From positions 94,083-158,082 of the forward strand of contig VYBN01000003.1 of NCBI GenBank assembly GCA_009844425.1: 64,000 bases of DNA, read 5' to 3'. The translations under genes and the position numbers were made by a program. The notes beneath the pieces are model-generated. The model was not told the origin of the DNA and ran no database searches. It saw only the letters and a program-made list of their open reading frames with translations. Below are positions 4,510 through 59,810 of the stretch, piece after piece. Every line of letters starts with the position of its first letter. The first letter of the stretch is position 1. Source of the DNA: Gammaproteobacteria bacterium. GTDB taxonomy: Bacteria; Pseudomonadota; Gammaproteobacteria; Steroidobacterales; Foliamicaceae.

Positions 4510-4569
4510 GGACTGTTTTTGTGCGCCGGACACTACACTAGGGCATGATAGAAACAATCGTGGAATGAT

Positions 4570-5030: not shown

Positions 5031-6182
5031 ATGCCTGCAAGTCACCTCAAGTGGCCGTTTTTCGAGCAGCGGCACGGCCACCGGCAGAGCAGGCTGGAAG
5101 CCTGGTGCGGCGAGAAATCCTGGGAGAAGGAGCTCTCCGATTCCGACCTGGACGCGAACTGCCGGGACATCGCCAGGCGTCTGGGCGAGGCCGGGTTCCT
5201 GAGGATCGCGGTGCCGCAGCCGTTCGGCGATGACGCCAGCCTCGACGCCCGCAGTCTGTGCCTGATGCGTGAAACGCTGGCGCGGCACGAGCCCCTGGCC
5301 GATTTTGTCTACGCGATGCAGGTTCTCGGCAGCGCGCCGATAAGCCTGCACGGGAACTCCGGGCAGAAGGAGGCATGGCTGGGCGATGTGGCCGCCGGGC
5401 GGAAGATCGCGGCCTTCGCGCTCTCGGAGAAGGAAGCGGGTTCGGATGTCGCCGCCATGACCATGCGCGCGGAGCGGAGCAAGGGCGACTATGTGCTCAA
5501 CGGCGCCAAGGCCTGGATTTCGAATGCCGGAGTCGCCGATTTCTACGTGGTATTCGCCCGCACCGCCGAAGGCAAGCGTGGAATCAGCGCGTTCGTGGCG
5601 CCTGCCGATACGCCCGGCCTTAAGATTGGCGAGCGCACCCGGGCCATTGCGGCGCACCCGCTGGGCAACCTTGAATTCAACGACTGCCGCCTGCCGGCGG
5701 AATCCATGCTGGGCGCGCCCGGAGACGGGATGCGTGTTGCGCTCGGCACTCTGGACCTGTGCCGTTCCACCGTGGGCGCGGCCGCGCTGGGCATGGCGCG
5801 CCGGGCCTACGGTGAAGCGTTGCAAAGAGCACGCCGGCGCGAGCTGTTCGGCGGGACCCTCGGCGACCTGCAACTCACGCAGGCGGCCCTGGCCGACATG
5901 GCGACGTCCATTGATGCGGCGGCTCTTCTGGTTTACCGGGCCGCCTGGACGCGCGATTCGGGGCAGGAGCGCATAACCCGCGAAGCCTCGATGGCCAAGC
6001 TGTTCGCGACCGAGCAAGCGCAAACGGTGATCGACCGCGCGGTGCAGTTGTTCGGCGGCGAGGGGGTCCGGGCGGGCTCCGTGGTGGAGCGGCTGTACCG
6101 CGAGATACGCGCGCTCAGGATTTACGAGGGCGCAAGCGAGATTCAGCAACTGCTGATCGCGCGCCACGAGCTGAAGGGCTAG
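5031..6182 (+). CDS. Acyl-CoA dehydrogenase family protein
   Basis: This 383-residue FAD enzyme is expected to oxidise an acyl-CoA to the 2,3-enoyl-CoA. Signature one is [14 protein letters not shown], followed by [14 protein letters not shown] in the middle beta domain. The C-terminal helical domain has [12 protein letters not shown] and ends with [10 protein letters not shown], which carries the usual catalytic glutamate region. The ATG at 5031 lies 11 bases after the HIT stop. Chain-length preference cannot be read from the sequence. A long hairpin begins about 50 bases after the stop. Confidence 0.9.
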
Positions 6183-6234
6183 CCCGTATACCTCATCAAC
6201 TTCCCGAATACGGGTCGCGCACCCGCCGCGGCCA

Positions 6235-6334
6235 TCTCATCGCCTCCTTCTTCCGGGAGTGTGTGAGCCATGGATGGCGGAACCAAGCCCCATGGATGGG
6301 TGCATGCGTCTCCCGGAAGAAGGAGGCGATGAGA
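6235..6334. repeat. Long hairpin, conserved-loop family, copy 1
   Basis: A perfect 25-bp inverted repeat (6235-6259 with 6310-6334) encloses a 50-nt loop. The loop carries the family core: CCATGGATGGCGGAAC, a short spacer, then CCATGGATGG and ATGCGT. The left arm is pyrimidine-rich and the right arm purine-rich. The right arm contains AGGAGG at 6321-6326 and the start codon of the next gene (6329), so the folded RNA would hide its translation start. There is no U-run, so it is not a standard intrinsic terminator. Confidence 0.85.
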
Positions 6335-8446
6335 CGGCCAACTCGAAGCGCCTCCGGAACGCAGTCCGCCCTGCCATGGCTGCTTGCGCTTGCCCAATGC
6401 CTGCCGCTGCCGGCCGTCCATGCTCAGGCAAGCGAAGGCGCAAGCGCCGATGTCGAAGAAATCGTGGTGACCGCGCGGCGGCGTCCCGGCGACGTGCAAG
6501 GCGTGGGCCGCAGCCTCAGCGCGCTGGACCTTGAGCGCCTCGGCGGACTGCCCGGACAGATGCACGTGCAGGAGGCGCTGGCGCGGGTGCCGGGCGTGAA
6601 CCTGCAGCGGGGCAACGGACAGGAGTACCTGCCGGCGCTGCGGTCGCCGGTGCTCACCGGGGCCGGCGCCTGCGGCGCGCTGCTAACGGCAGAGGACGGC
6701 ATTCCGCTGACCTCGCCGGGCTTTTGCAACATCAACGAACTTTTCTTCGCCCACCACGAGGCGGCTTCGCGCATAGAGGTGCTGCGTGGGCCGGGAACGG
6801 CCGTGCATGGAGGCAATGCGCTGCACGGTGTCGTTAACGTCATCACCGCGCGCAGCGCAGGGTCTTCGCTTGCCGGCCTGGAGTTGGGGTCGTACGGTCT
6901 GGCGCGATTCCGGCTGAACCGGTTCGGCGAGGCGGACAGCGGCCTCAGGTTGACCGCGGTGCGCGACGGCGGTTTTCGCGACGATGCCGGCTACCGGCAG
7001 TTCAAGCTCAACGCCTTTCGCTCGGGGACCCGGCGAGCCTGGGACTGGACCGGCGGCCTGGCCGTGAGCGGGCTGGACCAGGACACCGCGGGGTACATCA
7101 CCGGACTCGACAGCTATCGCGACCGGCAAACCGCCCGCTCGAATCCGGACCCCGAAGCGTTCCGCAAGGCGCTCAATCTGCGCGCCTGGGCACGCCTTCA
7201 ATATCGGCGTAGTGAAGCCTGGTCGCTGGTGCTGACGCCGTACCTGCGCTACTCGCGGATGCGCTTTCGGATGCATTTCCTGCCCGGCGACCCGTTCGAG
7301 CGCAACGGCCATTCCGGCGCCGGCCTGCAGACGGCCGCCTATATCGACCGACCAGCCTGGCGCCTCATTGCCGGTCTGGACTTCGAGTACGCGCGGGGCG
7401 ATCTGCGCCAGTGGCAGGAGGGCGACGCCGCCGGCAGCGCATTCGTGCGGGCGGTCTTCCCCTCGGGGGACCACTACGACTACGAGGTGGACGCCGGCTG
7501 GCTGGCTCCATTTGCACAGATTGACCTGCGTCTCGGAAGCGATTGGACCGCGAGCCTCGGGGCGCGTTACGAACGCACGCGCTACGACTACCGCACGACG
7601 CTGCCCGCGGGACGCACGCGCGACGACCTGACTCCCTGCGGTTTCGGAGGTTGCCGCTACAGTCGCCCTGCCAATCGCGCCGACAGCTTCGGGACGTTCT
7701 CGCCCAAGGCGAGCATCATCTGGAGCCCTTCGGGCAGCGCACGCGCCTGGCTCAGTCTTTCGCACGGCTTTCGCATGCCGCAGGCCACCGAGCTGTACCG
7801 CCTGCAGGGTGCGCAGGCCACGGCGGATTTGCGTCCGGAACAGCTTCGGGCGGCGGAACTGGGCGCGTCCTTCCGCCTCGAAGCCTTTGCCGCTCAGGTG
7901 GCGCTTTATCACATGCGCAAGCGGGACGTCCTTTTCCGCGATGCGGAGCTGTTCAACCGCGCGGGCGGCGGCACCCGCCACGAGGGGTTCGAGATCGGCT
8001 TCTCCTGGCAGGCGATATCCGGGCTGACGGTGGAACTTACAGGCAGCGTCGCCCGGCACCGCTACGACAGGGATTACCTGCTCGGGGGCGTCAATCTGAA
8101 AGGCCTCGACGTGGACACGGCGCCGCGCCGGTTCGGCGGGACGCGCATTCGCTGGCGGGACGATTCAGACTGGCAGATGGAGCTGGAGTGGCTCTGGACT
8201 TCAGGCTACTTCATGGAGCCCCAAAACCGCCATCGCTATCCGGGTCATGCAATCCTGAACCTGCGCGCGCGAGCGGCGCTGGGGCCAAGAGTCGTCGCCT
8301 ATCTGCGCCTGCTCAACCTGACCGGCCGCGCATACGCGGACCGCGCCGACTATACGGTCTTCAGTAGAGAGCGCTATTTCCCCGGACGGCCCCGATCGGT
8401 GTTTGCCGGCCTGGAATGGCGCTGGGGTGCGCCCATCCCGAAATAG
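6329..8446 (+). CDS. TonB-dependent outer-membrane receptor
   Basis: This 705-residue TonB-dependent transporter imports a ligand across the outer membrane. I chose the ATG at 6329 because it gives a signal peptide (MRRPTRSASGTQSALPWLLA, cleavage near VHA-QA), while the upstream frame is only hairpin sequence. After cleavage come EEIVVTARRR, a TonB-box-like plug start, then plug motifs RIEVLRGPGTAVHGGNA and GVVNVITA. The rest is barrel, ending in FAGLEWRWGAPIPK; the final residue is K rather than the usual F or W. AGGAGG at 6321-6326 is only 2 bases from the start and lies inside the hairpin arm. Ligand unknown. Confidence 0.9.
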   Translation: MRRPTRSASGTQSALPWLLALAQCLPLPAVHAQASEGASADVEEIVVTARRRPGDVQGVGRSLSALDLERLGGLPGQMHVQEALARVPGVNLQRGNGQEYLPALRSPVLTGAGACGALLTAEDGIPLTSPGFCNINELFFAHHEAASRIEVLRGPGTAVHGGNALHGVVNVITARSAGSSLAGLELGSYGLARFRLNRFGEADSGLRLTAVRDGGFRDDAGYRQFKLNAFRSGTRRAWDWTGGLAVSGLDQDTAGYITGLDSYRDRQTARSNPDPEAFRKALNLRAWARLQYRRSEAWSLVLTPYLRYSRMRFRMHFLPGDPFERNGHSGAGLQTAAYIDRPAWRLIAGLDFEYARGDLRQWQEGDAAGSAFVRAVFPSGDHYDYEVDAGWLAPFAQIDLRLGSDWTASLGARYERTRYDYRTTLPAGRTRDDLTPCGFGGCRYSRPANRADSFGTFSPKASIIWSPSGSARAWLSLSHGFRMPQATELYRLQGAQATADLRPEQLRAAELGASFRLEAFAAQVALYHMRKRDVLFRDAELFNRAGGGTRHEGFEIGFSWQAISGLTVELTGSVARHRYDRDYLLGGVNLKGLDVDTAPRRFGGTRIRWRDDSDWQMELEWLWTSGYFMEPQNRHRYPGHAILNLRARAALGPRVVAYLRLLNLTGRAYADRADYTVFSRERYFPGRPRSVFAGLEWRWGAPIPK

Positions 8447-8473: not shown

Positions 8474-8572
8474 GCCCTTCGTTCGTCCCCTTCCTCGTTG
8501 GAGTCGCCATCCATGGCTCGGAAGCGCTATCCTGCTTTTACGCTCCCACGAGGAAGGGGACGAACGAAGGGC
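8474..8572. repeat. Long hairpin, conserved-loop family, copy 2 (degenerate loop)
   Basis: A perfect 25-bp inverted repeat (8474-8498 with 8548-8572) lies 28 bases after the receptor stop. The left arm is pyrimidine-rich (TTCGTCCCCTTCC). The loop keeps only part of the shared core (CCATCCATGGCTCGG), so this is a decayed or variant copy. Bases 8573-8631 between this and copy 3 hold nothing recognisable. Confidence 0.75.
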
Positions 8573-8631: not shown

Positions 8632-8740
8632 GGTTTCTCATGCACACCTGTTCCGGGAACGTCGGAGGCAGGGATGCCGACGCCGAGCCCACAGGGATGT
8701 GCTTGCCGGCGGTTCCCGGAACAGGTGTGCATGAGAAACC
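8632..8740. repeat. Long hairpin, conserved-loop family, copy 3
   Basis: A perfect 29-bp inverted repeat (8632-8660 with 8712-8740) encloses a 51-nt loop. The loop retains the core order: GGCAGGGATGCC, CCGAGCCC, CAGGGATG. Together with copy 2 it fills the convergent gap of about 330 bases between a TonB receptor and a small secreted protein. No other feature is visible there. Confidence 0.82.
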
Positions 8741-15423: not shown

Positions 15424-15472
15424 CGCGTAACCGAGAGTACCTGCGAGCAAAGGTGTTCCTGGCACCATGGGA

Positions 15473-15578
15473 GCCTATCTTTGCCCCCTTCCACCGGGGG
15501 CTTGTGAGCCAGGGATGGCGGAACAGAGCTCCATGGATGGATTGATGCGTCCCCCGGTGGAAGGGGGCAAAGATAGGC
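15473..15578. repeat. Long hairpin, conserved-loop family, copy 5
   Basis: A perfect 28-bp inverted repeat (15473-15500 with 15551-15578) encloses a 50-nt loop with the full core: GAGCCAGGGATGGCGGAACA, then GAGCTCCATGGATGGATT and ATGCGT. It lies 50 bases after the TonB receptor stop and about 70 bases before rpoH. Confidence 0.87.
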
Positions 15579-15645
15579 GGGATCAGGGCTACGGCCTTGA
15601 AAGTCATCGGGTCCGCCCCCAGAAAATGGTAAAATCCATTGTGCA

Positions 15646-16670: not shown

Positions 16671-17849
16671 ATGCATCGCAAACAATTCCGTTCCAACTCC
16701 CGATCCGTTTTCGGGGCCCTTCCGATTGCGGTAACTCTTGCCTTTGCCGCGTGCGGGCTTTCACCGGCCCTCATGGCCCAACCGGCCGGCGGTCCGCCTG
16801 CCCAGGCAGCGACTCCGGATACCATCGAGTGGCAGACCGACGAGATGCTGCCGTATTACGAGATACCGAACATCCCGGTATCCGCCGAGGCCTACTTCGC
16901 GCCGGACAGTTATCACCTGATCGCCCAGACCCGCGATCCCGATGCGGTGCAGGGCGCCAGCGGCCGGCACGGCAACCTCACCTATACCTACACGATCGAG
17001 GGCACGGAGCTGACCCGGATCAACGACAAGGGTCAGGACGCGTGTTCGTACTTCTTTCCGGATCAGCAGCGCGTGATCTTCACCTCCACCCGCGACAACC
17101 TGCATCTTCCGGTCGGAAACTGGTCGGATGAGGACGAGTACCCCACCGGCGGCGAACTCTACATTGCCAATGTCGACGGCAGCGACCGCCGCCGGCTGAC
17201 CCACAACGAGTGGTACGAGGCGGAAGTCGTCGTTTCGCCAACCGGCGAGTGGATTGCTTTCGGGCGCAACATCGACGGCCGGCAGGACCTGTGGCGCATA
17301 CGCCCCGACGGCACGGACGAACAGCGCATCACGGACACCGACGACTGGCAGGAAGGCTCTCCGTATTTCATGCCCGACGGCGAGCACCTGATGTTCCGCT
17401 CCTGGCGGGATTCGGACTACAAGAGGATCAGGCCCACGCCAATGATCGTCATGACAATCAACATCGACGGTTCCGACTGGCGCGGCTACACCTTTGACGG
17501 TGACATGAACTGGGCGCCCAATCCGGCGCCGGACGGACGCCACTACGTGTTTGTGCGGGTTACGGAACAGGATGCCGGCCCGCTGGGCAACTGGGACATA
17601 TTCCTCGGCGACCTGGCCGGCGGCGAACCCGTGCGTCTGACCACCTTTCCGGGATTCGACGGTTTGCCCGGCATGGCCCCGAACGGAAAATTGCTGGCGT
17701 GGGCGCGGGCCAGGGGAGGAGGCTTCATGGCGGGGATCAAGACCCACATCATGGACGTGTCTTCGCTGGAAATCGGTCCCGAGAACTACGAGCCGCTGAA
17801 TCCCGAATGGGGCCGGCCGATGTCCGACGATCCGCCGGCGACCCGATAA
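16671..17849 (+). CDS. Periplasmic TolB-like beta-propeller protein (PD40 repeats)
   Basis: The 392-residue exported protein starts with a long signal sequence (hydrophobic PIAVTLAFAACGLSPALMA). If the Cys of AACG is a lipobox it could be a lipoprotein, but the fit is poor. The body has WD40-like PD40 blades: GELYIANVDGSDRRRLT, VVSPTGEWIAFGR, DLWRIRPDGTDEQRIT and LMFRSWRD. These resemble the TolB propeller, which binds partner proteins, but the TolB N-terminal domain and Tol-Pal genes are absent, so it is not called TolB. GGGGAGG precedes the ATG. The 143 bases between rpoH and this gene show nothing clear. Confidence 0.8.
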   Translation: MHRKQFRSNSRSVFGALPIAVTLAFAACGLSPALMAQPAGGPPAQAATPDTIEWQTDEMLPYYEIPNIPVSAEAYFAPDSYHLIAQTRDPDAVQGASGRHGNLTYTYTIEGTELTRINDKGQDACSYFFPDQQRVIFTSTRDNLHLPVGNWSDEDEYPTGGELYIANVDGSDRRRLTHNEWYEAEVVVSPTGEWIAFGRNIDGRQDLWRIRPDGTDEQRITDTDDWQEGSPYFMPDGEHLMFRSWRDSDYKRIRPTPMIVMTINIDGSDWRGYTFDGDMNWAPNPAPDGRHYVFVRVTEQDAGPLGNWDIFLGDLAGGEPVRLTTFPGFDGLPGMAPNGKLLAWARARGGGFMAGIKTHIMDVSSLEIGPENYEPLNPEWGRPMSDDPPATR

Positions 17850-17892
17850 CTGACTCAATCTCGGGTTCCCATGCTGCTGTGTCGCGGCGGTA

Positions 17893-17997
17893 GCCTTTCC
17901 TTGCCCCCTACTTCAGGGAGTATTGGAGCCATGGATGGCGGAGCAAGCTACAGGGACGTATTTATGCGTCTCCCGGAAGTAGGGGGCAAGGAAAGGC
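17893..17997. repeat. Long hairpin, conserved-loop family, copy 6
   Basis: A 28-bp inverted repeat with one mismatch (17893-17920 with 17970-17997) encloses a 49-nt loop. The core reads GAGCCATGGATGGCGGAGCA, then AGCTACAGGGACGTATTTAT and GCGT. It lies 44 bases after one stop and 86 bases before the next start. Confidence 0.85.
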
Positions 17998-18082
17998 GGA
18001 ATCGAAGCGCCGACCGAAAACTGGCGAGAATGCGGGCGGATGCGCTCGTATATCATGCCGGCGGAAACGTGGGGGTGCCGTC

Positions 18083-19798
18083 GTGGAACTGATGAATTTC
18101 TTCAACGCCCTGAATGCCGTGATCTGGCACAACTGGATGCTGTACGCGGTATTGGGAACAGGTGTCCTGTTTACCATCTGGAGCGGCTTTTGCCAGTACC
18201 GCGCGCTGACCCATGGAGTGGCCATAACGCGCGGGAAATACGACGACAAGGACGATCCGGGCGCTATTTCCCATTTCCAGGCGCTGTCCGCGGCCCTGTC
18301 CGCCACGGTTGGTCTCGGCAACATCGGCGGAGTGGCGCTTGCCATCAGCCTGGGCGGACCGGGCGCGGTGTTCTGGATGTGGGTAGTGGGGCTGTTCGGC
18401 ATGGCGGTCAAGCTGACCGAAGTGACGCTGACCATGCTCTATCGCGACACCAGCGATCCCGCGAATCCGCACGGCGGGCCGATGATGGTTGTGGACCAGG
18501 GGTTGCCCGCCCGGTGGCCGAAGCTGAGGCCGGCCGGCAAGGTGTTCGCGGTGATCTTCAGTATTTCCGTTGTGATTTCGGCGATCACCGGGGGCAACCT
18601 GTTCCAGGCCTGGAACGTCGGCGACGTGACCGAGAGCTATTTCGGGGTCCCGGCGTGGATGTGCGGTCTTGCGCTGGCCGTCGCAGCGGGCCTTGTGATC
18701 ATCGGCGGCATTCAGCGCATTGGGCAGGTCGCCTCGCGCCTGGTGCCGTTCATGGTGGTGCTGTACTTCTTCGGCTGCATCGTCGTGCTGGTACTGAGTT
18801 ACGAGCAGATCCCCGAATCGTTCGCGCTGATCTTCCGCGGCGCCTTCTCGTCGCTGGAGGGCACCGGCGCATTCATTGGCGGCACGGCCGGCGCCGCGTT
18901 CATTTTCGGGATGAAGCGCGCGCTGTTCTCGAGCGAGGCCGGCCAGGGCTCCTCGCCGATCGCGCACTCGGCGGCGCGCACCGACGAGCCGGTGCGCGAA
19001 GGCATCGTTGCCGCGCTCGAGCCGTTCATCGACACGCTGGTGGTATGCACGCTGACCGCGCTGGTGATCCTGAGCACCGGGCAATGGAAGCGCGGTCCGG
19101 AAGCCGAGTTCCCCGCCGGGCCCGACGTAGTGGCAGCGGAAACCGCCGGGTCCTGGACGATTGCGGAAAGCGTCGCGCCGGATCGCGCTGGCGGCGATTG
19201 GGCAGGCGGCGAGTCGGTGTTCGTGGTGGCGGTAGCGGATTTCCGCCCGGACACCGACAACAACCTTCACAAGTTGTCGGGCGAGATCGTGCTTGCCGGC
19301 GACAGGGAGGCCACGATCCGCTGGCAGTCCATCGAAAGCTCCGTTGCCCCGGTCCTGCGCGACAGCGGCCTGTACGTGTCCTACGAGGGCGCGACCATGA
19401 CCGCCCAGGCGCTGGATTCGGCCATTCCCGGCTTAGGCAAGTGGCTGGTCAGCCTGGCCGTGTGGCTGTTCGCCTTCTCCACCATCATTTCCTGGAGCTA
19501 CTACGCCGAGCAGGCGGTGTGGTTCCTGGGCGCGCGCAAGGTCGGGCTGATGGTTTACAAGATCTGCTACTGCCTGCTGGCGCTGGTCGCCACGCTGGGA
19601 TGGCTGCGCACGGACGCCGAGCTGGACACCGTCACCACGCTGGGGACCGGGCTGATGCTGGTCGTGAACATGCCGATCATGTGGCTGTTCGGCTGGCAGG
19701 CGATGCGCGCCTACAAGGAGTACGTCCGCAGGTTCACCAGCGGGCGCATGGACCGCGGCCAGGGCGCCCCGACGCTGGAAGACCTGATCCGAGGCTGA
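18083..19798 (+). CDS. AGCS-family sodium:alanine/glycine symporter with extra soluble insertion
   Basis: This 571-residue inner-membrane protein imports small neutral amino acids with Na+. Family landmarks are ATVGLGNIGGVALAISLGGP, then GAVFWMWVVGLFGMAVKLTE, and GQGSSPIAHSAA, FSTIISWSYYAEQA in the C-terminal half. Between LVILSTGQW (about residue 333) and SAIPGLGKWL (about 446) is a hydrophilic stretch of roughly 100 residues with beta-rich character (ESVFVVAVADFRPD). Typical members have only a short loop here. Start is GTG 18083; ATG 18092 is an alternative. The amino acid transported cannot be specified. Confidence 0.88.
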   Translation: MELMNFFNALNAVIWHNWMLYAVLGTGVLFTIWSGFCQYRALTHGVAITRGKYDDKDDPGAISHFQALSAALSATVGLGNIGGVALAISLGGPGAVFWMWVVGLFGMAVKLTEVTLTMLYRDTSDPANPHGGPMMVVDQGLPARWPKLRPAGKVFAVIFSISVVISAITGGNLFQAWNVGDVTESYFGVPAWMCGLALAVAAGLVIIGGIQRIGQVASRLVPFMVVLYFFGCIVVLVLSYEQIPESFALIFRGAFSSLEGTGAFIGGTAGAAFIFGMKRALFSSEAGQGSSPIAHSAARTDEPVREGIVAALEPFIDTLVVCTLTALVILSTGQWKRGPEAEFPAGPDVVAAETAGSWTIAESVAPDRAGGDWAGGESVFVVAVADFRPDTDNNLHKLSGEIVLAGDREATIRWQSIESSVAPVLRDSGLYVSYEGATMTAQALDSAIPGLGKWLVSLAVWLFAFSTIISWSYYAEQAVWFLGARKVGLMVYKICYCLLALVATLGWLRTDAELDTVTTLGTGLMLVVNMPIMWLFGWQAMRAYKEYVRRFTSGRMDRGQGAPTLEDLIRG

Positions 19799-59675: not shown

Positions 59676-59810
59676 TTCTCTGTGCTCCCTTCTTCCGGGG
59701 TGGATTCATGCAATCCACCATGAATACGTCCCTGTAGCTTGCTCGTTCGCGCCGGGACAACGGCGCTCACCCCTGCCTCCAATACTCCCGGAAGAAGGGA
59801 GCAAAGAGAA
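59676..59810. repeat. Long hairpin, conserved-loop family, reverse orientation (copy 9)
   Basis: A 24-bp inverted repeat with one mismatch (59676-59699 with 59787-59810) surrounds an 87-nt loop. Read on the minus strand the loop contains GAGTATTGGAGGCAGGGGTG and GAGCAAGCTACAGGGACGTA; the second string is identical to part of copy 6. About 37 extra bases and a second small stem (TGGATTCATG/CATGAATCCA-like) are inserted. It fills the convergent gap after the beta subunit. Confidence 0.75.

Follow-up and report, generated by a model that had tools for sequence, protein, structure and literature searches.

Putative YPAL-like palindromic repeats with arms that change in concert, one of them at the start of a TonB-dependent receptor gene

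Introduction

Palindromic elements of Rickettsia are short and can donate coding sequence, and they are assumed here, as are the ERIC/RU-1 elements, to be unrelated in sequence to the repeat family described below. ERIC/RU-1 elements are likewise short, palindromic and able to donate coding sequence, as set out in part of PMC2759123. REP, BIME and REPIN elements, in the sections of PMC3733652 that deal with them, resemble the present family in being palindromic, high in copy number, placed in convergent and co-directional gaps and downstream of coding sequence, and REPs with a GTAG tag go with RAYTs. REPs differ in having stems of 5-13 bp and a GTAG or CGTC tag, whereas the stems here are long and variable (PMC3733652, same sections). 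YPAL elements are described in portions of PMC2229807 as mobile, with variable target duplications and with empty and filled sites; like the family here they are intergenic, occur as empty and filled sites and contain internal inverted repeats.

A second group of comparable systems consists of hairpins maintained by template switching. Switching between the arms of inverted repeats homogenises the arms and inverts the spacers, according to part of PMC8604942. The table of PMC8794818 has 69 entries in which only the loop is inverted and 6 in which compensatory change accompanies the inversion. Its authors hold that no observation could support template switching more strongly than this combination, and they call it extremely rare. 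Compensatory changes with loop or spacer inversion are also what we find here. The systems treated in those portions of PMC8794818 and PMC8604942 are rRNA genes and yeast coding repeats, while ours is a dispersed repeat with 20-30-bp arms and 50-nt loops. No earlier account of a repeat family of this sort with arms changing in concert or loops inverted came to light in the literature searched. Such cases bear on the question of how long perfect stems stay paired while their sequence changes.

The hairpin at the receptor start

The window, that is the whole stretch of 64,000 nt analysed, contains at 6235-6259 and 6310-6334 a perfect 25-bp inverted repeat found by inverted-repeat search. The stem grows to 30 bp with one mismatch (6230-6259 and 6310-6339) around a 50-nt loop, and AGGAGG (6321-6326) and the ATG at 6329 both lie within the right arm, 2 nt apart. 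The positions of AGGAGG and the ATG, the perfect 25-bp stem at the receptor start and the two neighbouring genes had been given by the original prediction, made from the sequence alone, and all were recovered. The in-frame starts within the loop and the 8 family copies in the window, both described below, go beyond it. The following features belong to this locus.

5031-6182, + strand: acyl-CoA dehydrogenase gene, upstream neighbour
6183-6352, + strand: stretch replacing the short junction of relatives, element and flanks included (syntenic alignments; right end approximate)
6230-6259, + strand: left arm of the palindromic element (inverted-repeat search; perfect core 6235-6259)
6260-6309, + strand: 50-nt conserved loop (in a 25-copy alignment most loop columns are invariant or nearly so)
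6310-6339, + strand: right arm, holding AGGAGG (6321-6326) and ATG (6329-6331); its 25-bp core is identical in a sibling copy, C19:61552-61651
6329-8446, + strand: ORF of the TonB-dependent receptor, most likely starting at ATG 6329

The receptor ORF matches PF00593 (1.3e-34) and PF07715 (5.3e-9). With up to three mismatches allowed, the arm sequence was found at two sites in the whole window, both of them arms of this hairpin (0 of 100 shuffles), and the single-strand DNA fold of 6230-6339 gave z = -10.3 against 200 shuffles. The hairpin is not a chance structure. A scan of the window with Rfam at gathering level returned three tRNAs only.

The same junction is free of the hairpin in all five same-genus genomes with close synteny (G006, G007, G001, G003 and G005). 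In these, the first in-frame start of the receptor, either GTG or ATG, lies near the dehydrogenase stop and 27-39 nt upstream of conserved LPW codons (LPC in G005). G004 and G008 have some 1.1-1.2 kb at the junction instead, without a 12-bp inverted-repeat seed, and G002 has no match listed there. Judged by sequence comparison, the hairpin here is an insertion, apparently a recent copy of a dispersed repeat. The junction differs throughout, and no clean target-site duplication of the 3-26 bp expected of a YPAL-like element is visible by eye at the receptor site. The right arm and the sequence flanking it encode the receptor N-terminus, MRRPTRSASG. Since the sibling copy C19:61546 has the same AAGGAGGCGATGAGA arm, with AGGAGG and ATG in it, both the ribosome-binding site and the start codon were, by sequence comparison, brought ready-made by the element; 20 of 159 family copies have AGGAGG in their right arm. 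The earlier suggestion that the Shine-Dalgarno sequence was moved by hairpin insertion is thus borne out as to insertion, given the five relatives without the hairpin, and not as to the shift.

The repeat family in the genome and the genus

In the genome itself, blastn scored 40 of 121 candidates and gave at least 52 rows, falling at about 40 places, the final dozen rows being mostly arm matches on the opposite strand. A covariance model built from 25 copies gave at least 146 matches, a lower bound (150 of 1416 candidates scored), which correspond to 140 distinct places when reverse-strand repeats and one weak fragment are removed. A hairpin finder run on the window and fetched stretches gave 177 hairpins, of which 159 were kept as family and 18 were excluded for a loop that looked too long or lacked the family loop motifs; both model and finder are biased toward paired stems. 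The family was found in all eight other genomes of the genus, with at least 28 to 64 matches in each (65 candidates scored), and 4 of 49 other genomes of the order had matches to the family model. A strict pattern of the own loop type, used in a scan of genome contigs, gave 33 stretches; 32 of these come from records titled Gammaproteobacteria. The family hairpin is visible in 31 of the 33, the exceptions being L129, which is interrupted by its end, and L131 (an Acidimicrobiaceae record), which is a different sequence without a hairpin.

The window holds 8 family copies, the receptor hairpin included; the other seven are as follows.

8474-8572, - strand: family copy with 39-nt loop (in the G003 orthologue the arms are different but paired)
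8632-8740, + strand: family copy with 51-nt loop
10673-10782, + strand: family copy with 50-nt loop
15473-15578, + strand: family copy with 50-nt loop
17893-17997, + strand: family copy with 49-nt loop
31617-31724, + strand: family copy with 50-nt loop (orthologue in G006)
59676-59810, - strand: family copy with enlarged 87-nt loop

Family hairpins span about 95-135 bp, conserved flanks adding some 10-15 nt per side, and most of their loops measure 38 to 55 nt; the inner stem beneath the loop is fairly well conserved. The flanks of 122 copies have A at -1 in 95% (partly by construction, as the orientation rule used A), C at -5 in 79% and G at +1 in 94%. An extra GC-rich hairpin lies within the loop in L202 (15096-15228), L213 (2561-2692), L163 (15238-15369), L190 (10909-11041) and the window copy at 59676-59810, and one site, R42 (L223 and L163), has orthologues with and without it.

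Concerted change of the arms

About 20 outer stem pairs differ between copies. Among 155 copies with stems of at least 26 bp there are 151 distinct outer 15-mers, and clustering at 13/15 identity leaves 92 singletons, the biggest cluster having 16 members. Pairing is Watson-Crick at 4531 of 4646 stem pairs (97.5%). The 30 best blastn loci, in whose choice pairing played no part, have stems of 27-32 bp with no mismatch in 21, one in 8 and two in 1, and in the 25-copy alignment 24 of 29 stem pairs have changed on both sides. Arm identity between two copies is a poor guide to their loop identity: the latter averages 0.80-0.84 at arm identities from below 0.3 up to 0.8, and 0.87-0.91 above 0.8 (78 of the 159 copies, those with 49-51-nt loops ending in a common motif).

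Orthologous copies were compared by reducing 60 hairpins of relatives to 37 flank-matched sites, 35 with a hairpin in the own genome and 22 passing a threshold of 0.66 in left-arm identity; as L202 and L212 each enter two of these 22 pairs, the counts below are not independent. In the outer stem, 65 of 428 pairs had changed on both sides while being Watson-Crick in both genomes, and 6 had changed on one side. In the inner stem, two-sided changes were fewer than one-sided ones (5 vs 14 of 220). The adjacent flanks diverge by 8.0% and the loops by 8.8%, loop changes being uneven (0-3 in 11 of 22 pairs, 10-11 in 3), which suggests that some loops have been swapped for another loop type. By rough estimate, two independent hits at 8% would affect well under 1% of pairs, and the doubles observed are far commoner. 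Counted per pair, outer pairs with both sides changed are about twice as frequent as changes per flank site; this is expected if mutations in either arm are soon copied or erased, or faster.

The loop is inverted in 6 of the 22 orthologue pairs, at 5 own loci, with two of the six pairs sharing L212. Doubly changed arm pairs occur in four of these six. R55 is doubtful, its own stretch L206 having two adjacent hairpins, with 4 one-sided changes and just 106 flank bases compared; without it the figures are 5 of 21 and three. Compensated arm changes and loop inversion, the combination looked for as a mark of template switching, are thus both present among the orthologues. Of the 126 copies of the own genome that can be oriented, 122 have a loop orientation that matches the flank motif; inversion is therefore not free everywhere, and this agreement sits uneasily with the 6 of 22 inverted orthologues. 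Since the own loci L052, L169 and L213 are without the flank motif and L212 has its final A only (the doubtful L206 has the motif), inversion may be commoner in the motif-less class.

If stems were selected for pairing as RNA, G·U mismatches should be favoured over A·C. The 2500 pairs on co-directional transcripts have 9 G·U and 18 A·C, so there is no G·U excess. Together with the doubly changed pairs and the inverted loops, this favours upkeep of arm pairing by self-templating at the DNA level, probably template switching, rather than by selection on RNA. When pairs are read in loop-sense orientation, G·U does lead, with 35 G·U and 15 A·C for all pairs, and 19 and 13 for outer pairs.

The reading that we prefer, with a probability of roughly 0.7, is a recent YPAL-like insertion at the receptor start, in a family whose arms are kept complementary by DNA-level copying. 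A YPAL-like miniature palindromic element, abundant in the genus and located mostly just past stop codons, lies between the two genes at the place of the native receptor start of relatives, and sequence comparison shows that its right arm by chance provides a new purine-rich ribosome site and an ATG; ATG 6329 would now be used. The arms, taken as inherited at insertion, would drift in sequence and yet stay complementary, because any change in one of them is copied at the DNA level into its partner. The likely process is template switching by the polymerase within the hairpin, which would also invert the loop; the pattern itself is seen in the orthologues. For the receptor, the outcome would probably be weaker translation and lost coupling to the dehydrogenase. 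What is ordinary here is that a mobile palindromic repeat captured a gene start, and what is unusual is that the arms evolve in concert while the core loop stays.

Recombination, whether arm with arm or copy with copy, could also equalise arms and flip loops, and the arm-arm form is the main alternative to copying by template switching. A different idea, that arms are captured from the target by snap-back at insertion, was prompted by R41, at whose own site a right-arm-like sequence is kept without a hairpin; it was rejected because the receptor copy shares its arm core with the sibling at C19:61546, and because hairpin loss at J3 in G001 resembles, by eye, a deletion between short direct repeats.

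DNA-level copying, extended to the whole genus, leads to a broader picture, to which we tentatively give a little short of even odds: the genus holds some 150 palindromes of about 30 bp, with arms mutually rewritten and loops flipping over species divergence, while the core loop and self-complementarity persist and the core may be read by an enzyme or RNA-binding protein. If this is true, the family records template switching across the genome, its stem sequence unconstrained and nothing persisting but self-complementarity and the core loop. The 6 inverted loops in 22 pairs, with about 150 loci per genome, may be set against the 6 rare cases in the table of PMC8794818. When the stem of a bacterial repeat covaries strongly, this need not imply RNA structure, which is a caution for covariation-based RNA discovery.

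Genomic placement and a possible RNA role

According to our own hexamer gene calls, 14 of the 159 hairpins overlap a gene call. Another 143 have two called neighbours, which are convergent for 52, divergent for 5 and co-directional for 86, and the median distance is 25 nt on the stop-codon side (n = 190) and 56 nt on the start side (n = 96). Gaps of at least 40 bp in the window and L159-L215, a non-random sample as the stretches were chosen around elements, were convergent, divergent and co-directional in 34, 3 and 53 cases with an element and in 25, 44 and 81 cases without one.

Such placement is what may be expected if the stems are kept as working RNA, either bidirectional terminators or 3'-end stabilisers of mRNA. 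The median of 25 nt from the stop codon and the ratio of convergent to divergent gaps (34/3 with an element against 25/44 without) agree with this, REPs are placed alike in the relevant part of PMC3733652, and some relatives have, by eye, other hairpins at the same 3' sites. A 3' location, however, may also reflect tolerance or target choice, and co-directional transcripts are without the G·U excess over A·C. Neither is there a terminator T-run past the right arm, and in the other direction the run is no longer than T, TT or TTT, with T at 95%, 47% and 23% of the successive positions. That the stems are kept for their work as RNA is in our view rather unlikely, although RNA function may exist alongside the DNA-level upkeep that we favour.

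At two sites of the window (15426-15612 and 17840-18084) and the syntenic stretches L151-L158, some relatives have, by eye, shorter hairpins such as GGGAGAGAAGGC...GCCTTCTCTCCC. These occupy the same gene 3' ends, as if palindrome families replace one another.

The paired start of the receptor

The hairpin was originally proposed to insulate or switch receptor expression: RNA reading through from the dehydrogenase would hide the Shine-Dalgarno sequence and ATG, while a promoter in the loop would give a translatable RNA. The element does sit exactly at the receptor start, and in the predicted RNA fold both sites lie inside the stem, as was claimed. Yet the hairpin is absent in five of five closely syntenic relatives, a sibling copy elsewhere has the same arm with both sites, and the loop itself offers in-frame starts for the receptor, GTG 6263 and ATG 6296, either of which could, from its position, escape the stem. 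A translational switch is thus improbable, and a conserved role of this kind finds no support: the repeat is dispersed through intergenic DNA, mostly close to the 3' ends of genes, and its presence at the receptor is not conserved; comparison of the locus among relatives speaks for insertion and against conservation with the receptor. Sequestration of the start is, on the predicted fold, plausible but incidental, and the paired start may lower receptor translation.

The loop core

ANGGAN is the CsrA/Rsm consensus, and the loop at the receptor has two small hairpins that display it.

6267-6278, + strand: loop sub-hairpin 1, GCC[ATGGAT]GGC
6289-6300, + strand: loop sub-hairpin 2, CCC[ATGGAT]GGG

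Hairpins of the type C[ANGGAN]G with at least 3 bp number two per loop in 112 of 159 copies, one in 44 and none in 3, and on the opposite strand they are absent from all 159 loops. The two outer pairs of sub-hairpin 2 covary (TC/GA 42, CC/GG 28, TA/TA 18, GT/AC 4, CA/TG 2, unpaired 2; the 96 of 159 loops that fit the search expression).

The presence of ANGGA within hairpin loops, two of them per loop in most copies and on one strand only, together with CsrA in nine of nine genomes of the genus, could indicate a decoy that binds CsrA/RsmA. This is very doubtful, since the loop strand is random to transcription (39 sense and 47 antisense among the 86 co-directional copies) and the loop is inverted in 6 of 22 orthologues. 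The core with its two ANGGAN hairpins, common to part of Gammaproteobacteria, may be read by a mobilising enzyme or an RNA-binding protein. PMC9788540, where the CsrA motif is given as ANGGA, was considered as an earlier description of the repeat and set aside, as the relevant part covers two CsrA-related sRNAs instead.

Wider relatives and likeness to YPAL

The order relatives found with the model of own copies have loops that read GGAGCCTACATGGATGTATTCACGGCG. Of 369 sampled Gammaproteobacteria genomes, 22 contain a pattern made for the loops of order relatives, three of them in 252, 48 and 31 copies, and the reversed control pattern had no match in these 369 genomes. The strict form of the order-relative pattern had 0 matches in the own genome (G000), and the loop core had no match in plasmids and E. 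coli genomes. At 30 wider loci with 32 copies, 24 copies (two of which repeat others) have stems of 21-31 bp with 0-6 mismatches and 8 are without a long stem in our scan. Another 20 stretches hold 21 copies; 3 of these have no such stem, and the other 18 have stems of 16-31 bp with 1-5 mismatches, their arms being shared in part. Since stems are less perfect in the other Gammaproteobacteria looked at, the concerted behaviour of the arms may be special to the genus.

The RU-2 sequence printed in PMC2759123 has a 27-nt stretch that fits GAGCCTNCANGGANGNANTYACGGCGT by eye and is preceded by a hairpin with a GGA loop. The family shares with YPAL a long inverted repeat around a core and empty and filled sites, and the core is joined to it by a chain from the own model through the loops of order relatives to the printed RU-2, the last step by eye. 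As this is a chain of similarity and not a direct strict match, the window element is best taken as YPAL-like and not as YPAL, a naming that also follows from its length, about 95-135 bp vs about 168 bp. Another difference is that stems here are nearly perfect and almost copy-specific, whereas YPAL is listed with 7 contiguous pairs in the relevant part of PMC2229807.

No transposase for the element was found, and the flank composition of 122 copies contains no GTAG or CGTC end tag. That the element is a REP moved by a RAYT transposase is hardly credible, in spite of its high copy number, palindromic form and intergenic place downstream of genes, as its arms are not conserved and Y1_Tnp (PF01797), the RAYT-type Y1 transposase domain, occurs in 0 of 9 genomes of the genus, yet in 23 of 58 genomes searched.

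Hairpins or their products are substrates of SbcD and ExoI in E. coli. In the genus, SbcD is above cut-off in 0 of 9 genomes (with partial weaker matches in G004, G005 and G008), ExoI in 0 of 9 and ExoVII in 9 of 9. Loss of hairpin nucleases was rejected as a genus-specific cause and would be permissive at most, because SbcD and ExoI are rare across the order too. Among 58 genomes of the order, SbcD is above the curated cut-off in 1 and the C-terminal domain of ExoI in 4.

Other palindromic sequences

Several other inverted repeats were seen in the fetched stretches. Ten pairs of long-distance inverted repeats among the matches listed are candidate traces of an autonomous partner. Perfect 57-bp inverted repeats 3.6 kb apart in L174 (7974-8030 and 11618-11674) are like an insertion-sequence pair or transposon. 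Inverted repeats of 22-35 bp, 157-200 bp apart, lie in L160 (8553-8821), L176 (8756-9022), L203 (4258-4519), L183 (13099-13319) and L193 (2374-2616); they end in GCATCAG or TTTCAG, have internal hairpins in L160, L176 and L203, and look like another family of miniature elements. A further dispersed hairpin in L203 (7255-7346 and 11519-11610) and L160 (6195-6296) has a conserved 32-nt loop and differing paired arms, and is thus another case of a conserved loop on a variable stem.
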